A stretch of 32,994 nt of DNA from an uncultured Verrucomicrobiota bacterium. Lineage in GTDB: Bacteria > Verrucomicrobiota > Verrucomicrobiia > Opitutales > Intestinicryptomonadaceae. A program made the translations under genes and the position numbers. Below are positions 2,514-21,824 of the stretch, piece by piece; within the stretch, counting starts at the first letter, position 1, and each line of letters opens with the position of its first letter. The stretch is taken from NCBI GenBank assembly GCA_949287395.1, contig CASEFZ010000056.1, positions 1 through 32,994 of the forward strand, given 5' to 3'. The notes below the pieces were generated by a model that was not told the DNA's origin, searched no databases, and saw only the letters and a list, made by a program, of their open reading frames with translations.

Positions 2514-3653
2514 TCATAATTTATTCTCAATTTTATTTACGCCAATTTCTTTTAAGTAGAGACTTAAGGTTTCAAGGAAGGAGAAGACATCCGCCGGATA
2601 TAAATCTCCCAAGACCGATAATCTAAATGTATTGTACTTACTGATCTTTCCAGGGTAAATTGTATAACCACGCTCATATAAAAAGTCGTGCATTGACTTA
2701 AAGCTGTAACCCTTATTTATAGGTTCATTTATAGTAAGTAGAATATTTGAACGCAATTGGGCAGGCACAAGAAATGTAAATCCTAATTTTGCCAATCCAG
2801 ACTCCAGTATCCTAAAATTTTCTTCATATCTTTTTATTCTATTTTCAGCGCCCTCCTTGAAAAAGAGGTCTAAGGCCTTTTGCAATGCATAAACAATCTG
2901 AACTGGAGGCGTGAATTGCATTTGCCCACTCAAATTAAATCCAATATGCTGCGAGTATAAATCATGATAAAAAGAACGACGAACATTTTTTGAAGCTTTT
3001 AACAAATCGTTTCGCGTTATAACAAAACTTAATCCCGCCATTCCCTGTATACATTTATTTGAGGAAGATATAATGGCGCCCACCTTCCATTTTTTTAAGT
3101 CTATTTCCAACCCAGCATAAGAACTCATACAATCGACTATCAACTCAACGCCAAATTCAGATGCCATATCAGATATCTCTTGAATTGGATTTCTAATCCC
3201 GGTTGTTGTTTCATGGTCTATTATACCGATCCTAGATATCTTCGGGTCTCCCTTCAGCAGATTTCTGATTTCATCCAAATCCGGCACACTGGTATAGGGA
3301 ACTTTATAATGAACAACATCAATCCCATACGTTTGAGCTATCTCCAGCATTCTAGCCCCATACACGCCATTTTCTATGATTAGTATTTTTTCGCCTTTTG
3401 GGACCAGGGACGTAACCGCAGCTTCCACGCCACCCGTACCGGATGATGCAAAGAGTACCGCTGTATAATTATCTTGGCCATTTACGACTTTTACTAAATC
3501 TTTCTTTACACTATCCAAGACCCTGCAAAACTCTTCTTCGCGTGGACAAATATCGCTTTTGACCATCGCAAATTTCACTTCGTCGGAAGTTGTAGCAGGC
3601 CCTGGATTCAGCAGAATTTTTCTACTTGGAAATAATCCTTGGATAGATTTCAT
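2514..3653 (-). CDS. phnW: 2-Aminoethylphosphonate aminotransferase (class V, PLP)
   Basis: A 379-residue fold-type I PLP enzyme of the class V 2-aminoethylphosphonate:pyruvate/phosphonoacetaldehyde aminotransferase group. Visible marks: LLNPGPATTSDEVK (14-27), FASSGTGGVEAAV (68-80) for cofactor phosphate binding, DHETTTGIRNP (146-156), the PLP-ring aspartate in LIVDCMSSYAG (Asp174) and the Schiff-base lysine in SSSNKCIQG (Lys200). In this operon it most likely runs in the biosynthetic direction, aminating phosphonoacetaldehyde to 2-aminoethylphosphonate. The start at 3653 has an AAAGGG ribosome-binding site; an upstream ATG (3686) would overlap the preceding gene by 65 bases instead of 32. 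The overlap implies translational coupling to the nucleotidyltransferase. In other bacteria these two activities can be one fused protein, which supports the pairing. Substrate direction is inferred from context. Confidence 0.85.
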   Translation of the reverse strand: MKSIQGLFPSRKILLNPGPATTSDEVKFAMVKSDICPREEEFCRVLDSVKKDLVKVVNGQDNYTAVLFASSGTGGVEAAVTSLVPKGEKILIIENGVYGARMLEIAQTYGIDVVHYKVPYTSVPDLDEIRNLLKGDPKISRIGIIDHETTTGIRNPIQEISDMASEFGVELIVDCMSSYAGLEIDLKKWKVGAIISSSNKCIQGMAGLSFVITRNDLLKASKNVRRSFYHDLYSQHIGFNLSGQMQFTPPVQIVYALQKALDLFFKEGAENRIKRYEENFRILESGLAKLGFTFLVPAQLRSNILLTINEPINKGYSFKSMHDFLYERGYTIYPGKISKYNTFRLSVLGDLYPADVFSFLETLSLYLKEIGVNKIENKL

Positions 3654-4350
3654 TGATTGCCCTTTGGTAATGTTCAAGATTGTCAATTTCGCACCATGGC
3701 GTATCGCCTACATTTAAACAATAAAGCTTCTTCTCGTTTTTTGAAACCGCCATCATTGCAGATTCGTAATCCATTTTAGGATATTCTAACATGCAGGATT
3801 CGTAATAGCGACACATCATTTTATAAGTGTCCAAAGAAATCGCGCTGATTCCTATAAGTTCCCCATCTATGCGTTTCAAATCCTCTTTCCTCTTTGACAA
3901 AGCAACCAGATTGGAACTATCATCTGTCTCGATATATACTTCGTCCCCTGAATTCGTTTTGCCACTCATCAAAATGGCATCTTCTTTAGTGAGTTGCTGA
4001 AGGGTTTTTATTAAAGATGGATCGTAGAGCAGGTCAGATTCGAGAAGTATAAACGGAGAGTCAATATGTTCTCTCATATTATAAAGCGTATACATACTGC
4101 TAGTCTCATTGTACCTATAGCTTTTTACGCAAGAAATACTATTATTTTCAACCGCTAAGGCTTCATAAAATTCACTGTGGTGTCCAGTGCCTATAAGTAT
4201 GCGTTTTATACCGGCTGAAAGAAGCGCGTCTATCGAACGTTGAATTAAGGTTTTCCCGAAAATAGTTATAAAACCCTTGGGTTTCTCCTTCGTTTGAATT
4301 GAAAACCTAGAGCCCAACCCTGCCGCAACAAAAATTGCCGTATCGAACAT
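3622..4350 (-). CDS. pntC: PntC/LicC-like nucleotidyltransferase, probably CTP:aminoethylphosphonate cytidylyltransferase
   Basis: A 242-residue sugar-nucleotidyltransferase-fold protein. The nucleotide loop is intact: FVAAGLGSR (7-15) followed by EKPKG (22-26). Metal-binding aspartates are expected at Asp106 (LLESDLLYD) and Asp223 (CEIDNLEHY), and the segment RYNETSSMYTLYNM (79-92) resembles the phosphocholine/phosphonate cytidylyltransferases (LicC, PntC). Established knowledge: PntC activates 2-aminoethylphosphonate with CTP so that it can be transferred to lipids or glycans, and it often sits beside, or is fused to, the AEP aminotransferase. The gene lies 5 bases after the decarboxylase and overlaps the aminotransferase, so it belongs to the same transcript. 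Use of AEP rather than choline phosphate or a sugar phosphate is inferred from the operon. Confidence 0.8.
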   Translation of the reverse strand: MFDTAIFVAAGLGSRFSIQTKEKPKGFITIFGKTLIQRSIDALLSAGIKRILIGTGHHSEFYEALAVENNSISCVKSYRYNETSSMYTLYNMREHIDSPFILLESDLLYDPSLIKTLQQLTKEDAILMSGKTNSGDEVYIETDDSSNLVALSKRKEDLKRIDGELIGISAISLDTYKMMCRYYESCMLEYPKMDYESAMMAVSKNEKKLYCLNVGDTPWCEIDNLEHYQRAINEIYPRIISK

Positions 4351-4355
4351 ATATT

Positions 4356-5489
4356 CTATCCCAAATGTTTCATCAATCTTTCTTTAACCTCATATGGTTT
4401 TATAGAAGGACGGCCCAGACCATCTTTAGCTCCCTTTCTGGTTCGCAACCAAATAAAAGTTAACCCCCCGTCTTTCTTCCACCGCGCCACAGCCTTTGAA
4501 AAATCTTCAAGAGTGTTTGCACCAACAACATTTTCATAATTTGCAGCGGCCACAAGTTCATCAAACTTTACATTGCACGACGAACAGAACTGCCCTCCCG
4601 TTGAATCATGACAGTTATTATCTAATAGAATATGTAAAAGATTTTTGGGCGCATAGTAACCATTTGTTGCGATATTTCCCATACGCATGACCAAAGCACC
4701 GTCGCCATCTATAGCGATAATTTTTTTATCCGGTCTAGACAGAGCCAATCCCAAAGCTAAAGAACTTACGCATCCCATAGAGCCAACCATATACAGATTA
4801 TTGGGTGTATCGCCCAATTCGTAAAGTTCTCTGGATGAAAATCCAGTTGTGGATATATAAATTGGCTCATCGCCGGCGGCCTTTTTCAAAGCTTCTAATG
4901 CATTTATCCTCGAAGGAAGCTCGCCAGCAATATTAGGAATGGAAAACTCCCGCAACCCTTTTTGATGAGCATGCATCTCTCTTAGTTGAAGCGGAATTTT
5001 CTCAAATGTATTTTTCTTCACTATAAAAAAGAAAGCAGATCCTTTATCTATAATCTTATTGGCATTTTCTAATTGCTTTTGCGCTTCAACTTCATCCGGA
5101 GATAAAAATGCCCACGGGATTCTCATACAATCCAAAAGTTCAGTTGTAATTTGCCCCATTAGCTCGTGTTGAGGCTCGTCTGACAAGCCAACTTCGCCTC
5201 GAAGGCTAACAAAACCAAGCAGAGGAATCCTAAAACAGAACGTCAACGACGTCAGCGCTGAAACCGCATTTGCCAAACCCGAGTTTTGCATCAGAACAAC
5301 TGCCTTTCGACCACCGATATAAGCACCCGATGCTGTTGCCACAGCATCCGCTTCCGTTGGCGACATAATAAACTCACATTCGTTGAGCGCGTAATTAATC
5401 AACGGATTTAGGAAACTACATGGAACTCCCGCAAAAAAATCGAAACCCAGCAACTTTATTTTTTTACCGAAAGTGGACAAATCTAACAT
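4356..5489 (-). CDS. ppd: Phosphonopyruvate decarboxylase
   Basis: A 377-residue thiamine-diphosphate enzyme that decarboxylates phosphonopyruvate to phosphonoacetaldehyde, the step that pulls the unfavourable PEP mutase reaction forward. Seen in the protein: N-terminal pyrimidine-binding half with FFAGVPCSF (18-26) and SPTEADAVATASGAY (43-57; Glu46 is the expected cofactor-activating glutamate), and a C-terminal pyrophosphate-binding half with GSMGCVSSLALGLAL (236-250) and the GDG...NN motif (GDG 262-264, NN 291-292). Length and the two-half order match single-chain Ppd proteins. A GGGAG ribosome-binding site lies 9 bases before the ATG, inside the end of the mutase gene; 5 bases separate the two frames. 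Phosphonopyruvate rather than sulfopyruvate as substrate follows from the neighbouring PEP mutase. Confidence 0.9.
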   Translation of the reverse strand: MLDLSTFGKKIKLLGFDFFAGVPCSFLNPLINYALNECEFIMSPTEADAVATASGAYIGGRKAVVLMQNSGLANAVSALTSLTFCFRIPLLGFVSLRGEVGLSDEPQHELMGQITTELLDCMRIPWAFLSPDEVEAQKQLENANKIIDKGSAFFFIVKKNTFEKIPLQLREMHAHQKGLREFSIPNIAGELPSRINALEALKKAAGDEPIYISTTGFSSRELYELGDTPNNLYMVGSMGCVSSLALGLALSRPDKKIIAIDGDGALVMRMGNIATNGYYAPKNLLHILLDNNCHDSTGGQFCSSCNVKFDELVAAANYENVVGANTLEDFSKAVARWKKDGGLTFIWLRTRKGAKDGLGRPSIKPYEVKERLMKHLG

Positions 5490-5494
5490 AGAAA

Positions 5495-7087
5495 TTACTC
5501 CCTTGCCGATTGAAGATCAACAATTGTATCAATATCACTCCAAGATCCCGTAATAAATTTAACCTTTACCGGATTCTTCGCAGTGATCTCATTGAGGGCA
5601 TCGTTTATTGAAAGCTCTTTAAAATTAGGTCTTTTCGACATTTCAGCCATTTTATCTAACAGAATCTTTCCACCCTTTGCAGAGGTTTTTAAAATACCTA
5701 TAAATTCCCCTGTGGCACCCTTACTATCATAGGAGAGTCTTTTCAAAAAAGTAGGCTCGTCAAAAATATCCGTTTTGAACTTCTTATCGGTAACAATAAA
5801 GTCACGATTTTTATCATCACTTTTAGATATAATCGCATCGGCAACAATCACAATATCTGCGTCATCATTCATAAGTTCATTCAGGACATATCCTTTAAAC
5901 ACTATGTCCCCGAATGAAATTATTGTATTGTTTGCAATGCTTTCGCGTGCTAGCCACAGGGAATACAATTCTTTTGTATTCTTATAATCGTCGTTATCTG
6001 TATAAGATACATTTGTAAAAGTTATCTTTTCTTTCCCGAAACCTCTAACGACATTGATGAATTTTATACCGACACTATTAAAGAGCGATATCTGTCTACC
6101 AAGAATCGAGTTGCCATTTATTTGAAGCATTGTTTTGGGAGTATCCTTTGTAAGATCGCCCAGACTTCCTTGCGATGCCGCAAGAATTATAGCGTTCCAC
6201 TTTTTCCCCGATGCTGGTAAGTATTTCTTTTCGGCTTCTTTTAATTCGTCTGCCCCTTGCAATCTGAAAACTTCGCTTACTTTTACAATTTTATCTTCAA
6301 CATTAATTAAGCTTCTATCTTTGAAAATCCTTTCAGATGTCGTTTTCATAGCTTCGATAGCCGAACGGAGATTGTGGTTTGCCCAGATTATCAAGCTAAT
6401 GCCCAATTTTTCAAATTTTGCTGTTGGAACGGAATAATATTTTGTGGGAACAATTACAATGGGCTTGCGATTATCCCAACGTTCCATAAATGCCACTATA
6501 TCGGAATCAGTCGATTTCTTACTGTGTACAAGAATTGCATCAGCACCCGCATCAGCGTAAGCTTGCGCCCTGCGAATTGCTTCATCCACACCCCACCCAG
6601 CAATAAAAGCCTCAATTCTTGCAACTACTACAAAATCTGGATCAAGAGATGCCTGTTCGTCCTTTGCGGCCCTTATTTTACCACAAAACTCTTCCATATC
6701 CGCCAATGGTTGAGCTTCTCCGTCTATGAAAGAATTTGTTTTGGGGAACAGTTTATCTTCTATACAAACTCCGGCTATATTACGCTGTATCAATTTTTTT
6801 ATTAAACGGCGCATATTATTGAAATTGCCATATCCAGTATCGCCATCTAATAAAATCGGTATAGTTGAGGCATCGCTCATAAATTCCAGCACGTCTAAGA
6901 CTTGAGTCCAAGACGCTTCATTGTTATCCCTTACGCCTAACGATGCTGATATAGATAAACCACTTGCCCATATTCCCTCAAAGCCCGCTTCTTCTACGAT
7001 TTTTGCACTCAACCCGTTGTGGGCTTCCATAATAAACGACAAACCTTTTCGGTTTATCATATTGCGCAACATCGTTGATTTCTTCAT
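5495..7087 (-). CDS. pepM: Phosphoenolpyruvate mutase fused to a nucleotidyltransferase domain
   Basis: A 530-residue two-domain protein. Residues 1 to about 290 are an isocitrate-lyase-superfamily barrel with [15 protein letters not shown] (40-54), the metal site DGDTGYGN (81-88) and the PEP-mutase signature [10 protein letters not shown] (110-119), which separates true mutases from the lyases and hydrolases of the family. The mutase isomerises phosphoenolpyruvate to phosphonopyruvate and commits carbon to phosphonates. Residues from about 297 to 530 form a nucleotidyltransferase domain: [11 protein letters not shown] (301-311), [11 protein letters not shown] (316-326), SFGD and a late [11 protein letters not shown]. 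The glycine loop is not the usual GxGxR, so its activity is uncertain. The start has an excellent ribosome-binding site (AGGAGGT, 7 bases away) and is the first gene of the operon. Fusions of this order exist in other phosphonate clusters. Confidence 0.9.
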
Positions 7088-19798: not shown

Positions 19799-20097
19799 AG
19801 CGGGGTTCCCGTTTGGATTGACCAGTAGGACTTGTTTACAAAAATTTTTTTCAAAAAAAATTTTTTATCTGCCAGAAAAACGCACCGCAAAGAGACGTTT
19901 TTTTTGCAAAACGGGACAGTTTTACTCCCGCTCTAAAATATATCTTACTATCAATAAGTATGATACCCCTAAATAAATAGTTTCAATCGGCTTATTTACT
20001 ACATTCAACCTGCAAGGTTTTTTGCCAATACCCTAAAAATGCCGCTTCAGGCCATGAAAGTTTCAACTCTCAAAAATCAAGGTTTTTATTCAAAAAG

Positions 20098-20106
20098 TTA
20101 TTCACA
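20098..20106 (+). promoter_or_regulatory. DnaA-box-like site
   Basis: TTATTCACA differs from the consensus TTATCCACA at one base. Its neighbour TGTGAACAA begins 7 bases later in opposite orientation. Confidence 0.55.
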
Positions 20107-20113
20107 GCCCCCA

Positions 20114-20122
20114 TGTGAACAA
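20114..20122 (-). promoter_or_regulatory. DnaA-box-like site, inverted
   Basis: TGTGAACAA, complement TTGTTCACA, differs from the consensus at two bases. It forms an inverted pair with 20098-20106. Confidence 0.45.
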
Positions 20123-20224
20123 GTTGTATAAAAGTTCTTCTTGCAACTTTGAGAAATAGTGGGAAGATATGCGCAAAAGGGAGGCGACAAGCAAGACACT
20201 TTCTTGTTTTGGGATTGGGCCCGA

Positions 20225-20238
20225 CGGGTTTAAACCCG
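20225..20238. promoter_or_regulatory. Perfect 14-base palindrome upstream of dnaA
   Basis: CGGGTTTAAACCCG is fully self-complementary. It lies between the DnaA-box-like pair and the small ORF, a place where an operator for dnaA control would fit. No T-run follows, so it is not a terminator. Confidence 0.4.
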
Positions 20239-20290
20239 CAAACCCGAAGATGTATCAACCAAAATACAAATAACTTAAGAATTTATATCC

Positions 20291-20413
20291 ATGTTATTTT
20301 TCACAATTTCACAGACGGCATATCCAACGAAACGGCGTCTTGCTGAGGAAGGACCGGCCCTTGAGAAAGTCGGTGTTTCGGAGCGCTGCAAAAAGTGCGG
20401 ATATTGTGAATAA
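20291..20413 (+). CDS. Small Cys-rich protein (40 aa) immediately upstream of dnaA
   Basis: An ATG at 20291 opens a 40-codon frame ending in TAA at 20411-20413. The product begins MLFFTISQTAYPTKRRLAEE and ends KVGVSERCKKCGYCE, with a C-x2-C-G-x-C arrangement like one half of a zinc ribbon. Its C-terminal half is charged and reads like real protein rather than intergenic noise. The stop lies 16 bases before the dnaA ATG, and the dnaA ribosome-binding site (AGGGA) falls in that gap, so the two frames are probably on one mRNA. The DnaA-box-like site 20405-20413 overlaps its last codons. There is no strong ribosome-binding site of its own. I do not recognise a family; three cysteines could bind metal in a dimer. 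It might instead be a leader peptide. Confidence 0.5.
   Translation: MLFFTISQTAYPTKRRLAEEGPALEKVGVSERCKKCGYCE
20405..20413 (-). promoter_or_regulatory. DnaA-box-like site next to the dnaA ribosome-binding site
   Basis: TGTGAATAA, complement TTATTCACA, 16 bases before the dnaA start. A bound DnaA would lie inside the transcript start region of dnaA, consistent with autoregulation. Confidence 0.45.
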
Positions 20414-20429: not shown

Positions 20430-21824
20430 ATGGACGAACTAATCACAGCCCCGTCTGATATATGGCAAAAGGCCAAGACGGAAATACAAAATTCCGTCAC
20501 ACGCGATCTGTATTCGTCGTGGTTTGAACAGCTTGAGCTTGTCGGCGGCGACGCCGAAAAGCTGGTGCTGGGCGCCCACGGAGAATTTGCCGCAATATGG
20601 ATCCGCGACAACTTCACGGACATTTTGCTCACCCATGCGTCGCTTGCCGCCGGCAGGAACATGTCGGTTGAGATAGTTTCAACGGACACTTGTTTGGGTG
20701 CCCAACCGCAAAGCGGCGAATGTTCTGCCGAATCTGCGCGCGCGCCTGTGCGGGCGGCGGCCAGAATTTCCGGAAAAATTCCGCCTCTTGCGTCCATAAA
20801 GCCCTGCAACACTTTTGAGACCTTTGTTGTGGGGGAGAGCAACAGGTTTGCCCATGCGGCGGCGCTTGCGGTTGCCCAGAATGTGGGAACGGCATTCAAT
20901 CCGCTGTTCATATACGGTGCGACGGGCTTGGGAAAGACGCACCTGATGCACGCGATAGCGCACTTTGTAATGCGCAACAGCCCGGAGAAAAGAATAGTTT
21001 TCATATCCTCCGAGGCCTTTGTAAACGAATACATAGATGCAATCAGGGACAATAAAACCCTTGAATTTAGGCGCCACTACAGGAACGTTGATGTCCTCTT
21101 GATAGACGACGTGCAGTTCTTTGCCGGCAAGGAGCGTTGCCAGGAGGAATTTTTCCACACATTCAACGAACTTTTTAATTCCGGCAAACAGATAGTGTTG
21201 TCCTGCGACAAACCCATAAACGAGGTTGCCGACATAGAGCAAAGGCTTGTCTCGCGCTTTGGGTGGGGCGTATCGGTGGATATACAGGCGCCGGATTACG
21301 AGACGCGCCTTGCCATTTTGAGCAAGAAGGTTTCGGCGCTGAAGAGCCAGGCGCAAATATCGCCGGAAATAATAGAGATGCTTGCGAGGCGGTTTACAAA
21401 AAATGTCCGCAGAATGGAGGGCGCGTTAACAAACCTTGTAGCGTATGCGTCCCTCGTGGGCTCGAATGAGGCAATGTCGCTTGCCAAGGCCCAAGAGCTG
21501 CTTGCAGAAGCCTTCCTGCAGGAGGACGACAACCAGGTTGTGGATATCCAGATAATCCAGAAAAAGATCGCCGAGTACTACAAAGTTGACGAGGCAGAAA
21601 TTTCCGGCAAGCGCCGCACGGCAAACATAGCCATGGCCAGGCAGGTGGCCATGTTTATAGCAAGAAAGCTCACCACGCATTCGCTTCAGGAGATAGGCAA
21701 GCAGTTTGGCGGGCGCGACCACGGAACAGTCATGCACGCGATAAAAGTTGTCGATTCCGCCATGAACCAAAGCGACCAAATGCGCCGCAGCGTGGAATAT
21801 TTGTTAAATTCGCTGTCCTTTTAA
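20430..21824 (+). CDS. dnaA: Chromosomal replication initiator DnaA
   Basis: A 464-residue DnaA, the AAA+ ATPase that opens oriC and loads the replicative helicase. Domain I spans about 1-85 (DIWQKAKTEIQ, SSWFEQLELV), followed by a short linker to about 125. The AAA+ core has FNPLFIYGATGLGKTHLMHA with Walker A at 163-170, and Walker B LLIDDVQF (223-230). Arginine-finger region RLVSRFGWG follows. Domain IV carries the DnaA signature HSLQEIGKQFGGRDHGTVMH starting at residue 417, which reads the DnaA box. AGGGA lies 9 bases before the ATG. dnaN and recF are not adjacent, as is common in PVC genomes. A terminator stands 55 bases downstream. Regulation by DnaA itself is suggested by the box at 20405. 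Confidence 0.97.
   Translation: MDELITAPSDIWQKAKTEIQNSVTRDLYSSWFEQLELVGGDAEKLVLGAHGEFAAIWIRDNFTDILLTHASLAAGRNMSVEIVSTDTCLGAQPQSGECSAESARAPVRAAARISGKIPPLASIKPCNTFETFVVGESNRFAHAAALAVAQNVGTAFNPLFIYGATGLGKTHLMHAIAHFVMRNSPEKRIVFISSEAFVNEYIDAIRDNKTLEFRRHYRNVDVLLIDDVQFFAGKERCQEEFFHTFNELFNSGKQIVLSCDKPINEVADIEQRLVSRFGWGVSVDIQAPDYETRLAILSKKVSALKSQAQISPEIIEMLARRFTKNVRRMEGALTNLVAYASLVGSNEAMSLAKAQELLAEAFLQEDDNQVVDIQIIQKKIAEYYKVDEAEISGKRRTANIAMARQVAMFIARKLTTHSLQEIGKQFGGRDHGTVMHAIKVVDSAMNQSDQMRRSVEYLLNSLSF

Follow-up and report, generated by a model that had tools for sequence, protein, structure and literature searches.

Directly upstream of dnaA in a genome of the order Opitutales (Verrucomicrobiota) lies a 40-codon open reading frame (ORF; positions 20291 to 20413, plus strand), which we tentatively read as part of a DnaA-box-bearing dnaA leader whose short ORF may be kept for its translation and not for its peptide. 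Nearly as probable is a chance ORF, that is, an untranslated frame lying over ordinary autoregulatory DNA upstream of dnaA. All positions refer to the window, the whole stretch of DNA that was analyzed (32,994 nt). The level of DnaA helps determine the timing of bacterial replication start, and to our knowledge, the translational control of DnaA is understood in few species.

Genomes and open-frame tests

The family of the window's genome (f1) was searched in 19 genomes, of which two (G004 and G018) gave no dnaA match, and 17 upstream regions were read. G004 (same genus as the window, one contig) had neither a dnaA nor a dnaN match; its sequence seems unreadable rather than dnaA-less. The order set consisted of 119 genomes, some of which were taken from the genus and family searches; of 177 genomes searched, 170 had a dnaA match, and not all of these were used. 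Two other Opitutales families are designated f21 and f8; in the DnaA tree, f1, f8, and f21 fail to group as a single clade. Counts of open frames were compared with those in shuffled sequence. Because the first shuffles mixed AT-rich with GC-richer parts, the test was repeated with only the bases behind the ATG shuffled (first ATG within −165 to −95, counted from dnaA; open for at least 25 codons; Poisson-binomial p values).

Results

The ORF starts with ATG, translates to MLFFTISQTAYPTKRRLAEEGPALEKVGVSERCKKCGYCE followed by a stop (40 residues; C-terminus, CKKCGYCE), and ends 16 bases before the start of dnaA (20430 to 21824, plus strand; Pfam Bac_DnaA, Bac_DnaA_C, and DnaA_N; TIGR00362 above cut-off). 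Translation and Pfam/NCBIfam searches show that a first-pass annotation of this DNA had the frame, its ending, and its distance from dnaA exactly right. The peptide had no Pfam match up to an E value of 1, no NCBIfam match, and no second copy in its genome. A Shine-Dalgarno word is absent before its ATG; among 11 other ORFs in the window that begin with ATG and were examined, 7 have one. When the sequence behind the ATG was shuffled, at least 25 codons stayed open in 44% of shuffles; a single frame of 40 codons is ordinary by chance, and a nonrandom signal is visible only across relatives.

The same annotation had noted an overlap of the ORF with a DnaA-box-like site, and this overlap is real. 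A DnaA box without mismatch (TTATTCACA, 20405 to 20413, minus strand; mismatches counted against the DnaA-box consensus) coincides with the codons TGT GAA TAA that end the ORF. In reverse complement, TGT GAA TAA gives TTATTCACA; the closing C and E are therefore what a conserved DNA site yields when translated, and 5 of 12 family ORFs share this ending (CE plus stop). Conserved boxes stand just before dnaA, with TGTGAATAA at most 50 bases from dnaA in 14 of the 17 family genomes with a readable upstream region and TGTGAAYAA within the same distance in 102/119 order genomes (0.2% in shuffles). Judged from the sequence, the overlap of ORF and box is solid, and it is ordinary. A further DnaA-box-like site with one mismatch lies within the ORF (TTTTTCACA, 20297 to 20305, plus strand), and conservation of this site was not seen.

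Farther upstream, a distal box (TTATTCACA, 20098 to 20106, plus strand) is followed by a second, inverted relative to it and with one mismatch (TTGTTCACA, 20114 to 20122, minus strand); a box variant occupies the distal place in 94/118 genomes. Both lie in a conserved DNA block (20078 to 20150) that was matched in 6 of 18 other family genomes searched. The distal site (about 310 bases before dnaA) and the proximal site (about 25 bases before) thus both recur across the order. Autoregulation through DnaA boxes is established for dnaA genes, such as at the Escherichia coli dnaA promoters, and because the two sites are also conserved here, DnaA probably regulates its own gene through them.

Boxes at both ends would also suit a region belonging to the chromosomal origin, in which the DnaA sites flank an AT-rich unwinding element and the ORF is a by-product, and the center is indeed AT rich (78% AT at −160 to −140 in f1). 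This is an improbable reading, against which stand the GC skew, without a lasting sign change at dnaA in the window, and the location of dnaN, which is not adjacent to dnaA but on a different contig (G000, contig C88); both observations are still compatible with an origin.

A metal-binding micro-protein, as proposed in the first-pass annotation, fares worse. The window's own frame does carry a CxxC plus a third cysteine. In 12 of the 17 family genomes, an ATG within −165 to −60 opens a frame of at least 25 codons (five have no such ORF), and CxxC occurs in 1 of these 12 ORFs, that of the window itself, whose last cysteine is part of the DnaA box. The nearest relative (G008) has 78 to 79% DNA identity around the two DnaA sites, but its ORF encodes an unrelated peptide and crosses the box in another reading frame than the window ORF does. 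The comparison of frame and cysteines among relatives, which that annotation had itself suggested, therefore tells against the claim. Since neither the peptide nor the CxxC nor the frame in which the box is read is conserved, the micro-protein reading is unsupported. A metal-binding or conserved peptide was rejected as a candidate (no conservation, no family match), and a functional micro-protein of any kind, perhaps young or fast evolving, is very improbable.

Substitution patterns were examined in gapless genus sets from f21 (three genomes with 33-codon frames) and f8 (five genomes of equal ATG-to-box length and one close pair). The substitutions are spread across all three codon positions, and in the two closest pairs, synonymous and nonsynonymous codons number 0 and 4 in one and 2 and 1 in the other. 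Together with the unrelated peptides of f1, these f21 and f8 changes give no sign of purifying selection on amino acids. The length from ATG to box is equal within genera despite many substitutions (3/3, 5/5, and 2/2), which could alternatively reflect the spacing of DNA sites. Of 11 family ORFs, 5 have a codon usage that favors their own frame. The window ORF does not, and its codons match dnaA usage better in another frame; codon usage gives no support for a product.

As a separate observation, one f21 genus (g51; G097, G155, G183, and G184) has a short conserved ATTGATA stretch (GTTGATA in G183) at about −100 from dnaA in otherwise diverged leader ORFs. In three of these four genomes, the stretch can be translated as IIDxEA; it may be a DNA element or a peptide.

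The recurring element is an open frame of varying sequence. At the same place in other genomes, with no sequence similarity, an ATG is followed by 26 to 45 open codons. Such a frame was found in 12/17 f1 genomes, against 5.05 ± 1.79 expected (2,000 shuffles), and across the order, ATG frames of at least 25 codons were present in 49/108 genomes against 28.9 ± 4.4 in shuffles, counts in which genomes of one genus are not independent. No excess was seen in the controls, neither on the antisense strand (18 against 25.3 expected) nor at three upstream shifts (at or below expectation). The excess came from three families (f1, 12/17; f21, 10/12; f8, 5/5), and the 74 genomes outside them showed none (22 versus 19.0). 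The distance from ORF stop to dnaA start is 9 to 47 bases in 11 of the 12 family ORFs; in G017, which counts as an f1 hit, the frame extends into dnaA and the DnaA box is missing.

With only the bases behind the ATG shuffled, the frame was open in 11/15 f1 genomes against 5.4 expected (p = 0.0017; two further genomes had no ATG there), in 12/13 f21 genomes against 6.3 (p = 0.0007), and in 7/7 f8 genomes against 3.3 (p = 0.014 for the 5 distinct f8 genomes), with both the interval and the three families noted after the data had been seen. The remaining genomes gave 19/44 against 18.3. When interval and threshold were varied, the effect was weaker yet kept in most settings; with an interval from −200, it was lost in f1 (7/15 versus 4.7; p = 0.15).

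A chance ORF would end where it does because two of the three frames meet a stop codon in the DnaA box TGTGAATAA, and it would start after an AT-rich stretch that is itself full of stops. The 44% of shuffles that stay open behind the window's ATG fit this explanation, as do the lack of peptide conservation and of a codon-usage signal, the absence of an excess in most families, and the dependence of the effect on the interval. Against it, the excess in f1, f21, and f8 survives when only the bases behind the ATG are shuffled, and the other strand and the upstream controls have no excess. The earlier suggestion of a leader ORF in the dnaA transcript may hold as regards the ORF, with moderate support from sequence comparison, since open frames that begin with ATG and vary in sequence are found here repeatedly; as regards a conserved leader peptide, it did not hold.

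The leader itself would begin at a sigma-70-like distal promoter (TTGCAA-16-GAAGAT; 20141 to 20168, plus strand) that lies 3' of the distal DnaA boxes and was derived from an alignment of relatives. A generic promoter scan did not call it, and we therefore treat it as inferred. The TTGCAA hexamer is present in 67/119 genomes, and the second hexamer is nearer to TATAAT than in shuffles (3.16 versus 2.53 matches). A proximal promoter overlapping the DnaA box was considered and rejected: some genomes of the family have TTGAC there, yet over 91 genomes it was no commoner than in shuffles.

The putative 5' leader RNA (20177 to 20290, plus strand) is predicted to fold at its 5' end (z = −1.66 in the window; mean, −1.87 for 14 family genomes). 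With a fixed length of 95 bases, the mean z in 15 family genomes was −1.93, compared with −0.56 upstream and −0.44 in the ORF; the reverse complement of the family leader also reaches −1.1. The family leader folds better than shuffles, though its sequence is unlike between genomes. A folded leader is not an order-wide feature (mean z, −0.65 versus −0.50 upstream; 80/119 genomes; a small effect). Within the family, AU-rich and mostly unpaired RNA precedes the ATG (in the window, AATAACTTAAGA, 20269 to 20280, plus strand, a motif defined after looking); the strict pattern AWAAYTTAVAA had no match in the window. Terminator-like hairpins in the ORF were noticed by eye in G008 and G012, and a scan found none in the window. 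No known RNA family was found in the dnaA leader; the sole Rfam match up to an E value of 1 was a subthreshold hit to AsdA, an antisense RNA of dnaA mRNA, inside dnaA (20913 to 20977, minus strand; 23.5 bits; gathering threshold, 52), which is probably chance or coding similarity.

Elsewhere in the window, phosphonate-synthesis genes occupy 2514 to 7087 (minus strand). They include a phosphoenolpyruvate mutase with a C-terminal nucleotidyltransferase part (5495 to 7087, minus strand), a phosphonopyruvate decarboxylase (4356 to 5489, minus strand), a nucleotidyltransferase, and a class V aminotransferase. The GC content of this stretch is 39 to 42%, against about 50% in most of the remaining window.

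Discussion

On the reading of a short ORF kept for translation, the distal promoter beside the first DnaA site would yield a dnaA mRNA whose leader, about 250 bases long, would in the window's family be folded at its 5' end and continue into an AU-rich stretch with the AUG. Ribosomes would initiate at this AUG and reach the DnaA box after translating some 26 to 42 codons; the start and the openness of the frame would be kept, and the peptide would not. If the ORF is translated, its use would lie in translation itself, because the product cannot matter much: translation of the leader may guard the RNA from premature (e.g., Rho-dependent) termination or decay, or it may pass ribosomes on to dnaA. 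DnaA bound at the boxes would repress its own gene.

A wider version of this proposal is possible, though we hold it with more reserve. In several Opitutales lineages, the start and openness of the leader ORF would be under selection while the peptide drifts; its stop would often lie within the DnaA box, and ribosome traffic and DnaA binding at the same site would jointly set the amount of the initiator.

If the ORF is indeed kept solely for translation, DnaA autoregulation in this order would gain a translational input, and the case would explain how some functional small ORFs escape tests based on conservation. If the ORF is due to chance, it is a caution that a conserved DNA site read as codons can mimic a conserved cysteine motif.

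A partial search of the literature returned nothing on leader ORFs preceding dnaA. As in the DnaA-autoregulated dnaA promoters of E. coli, the window has DnaA boxes directly upstream of dnaA; unlike in those promoters, its proximal box doubles as the end of an open frame, and autoregulation here is predicted from sequence. In Bordetella, CruR is a copper-responsive upstream ORF with a CxxC that couples its translation to downstream Rho-dependent termination (PMC9426467), and so it works in the way that the first-pass annotation imagined for the window. CruR belongs to a conserved family, DUF2946, whose CxxC and RAPP motifs are also conserved; neither the sequence nor the CxxC of the window ORF is conserved, and with no Pfam match up to an E value of 1 and CxxC in 1/12 family ORFs, the window ORF is not a member. 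In Caulobacter, the nutrient control of dnaA resides in the N-terminal codons of DnaA itself and does not need the 5' leader; nowhere in the available portion of that article does the term "upstream open reading" occur (PMC8443254). This differs from what is proposed here. The likeness lies in the Caulobacter leader, described there as long, structured, and with no obvious Shine-Dalgarno sequence, at a dnaA gene under translational control (PMC8443254).
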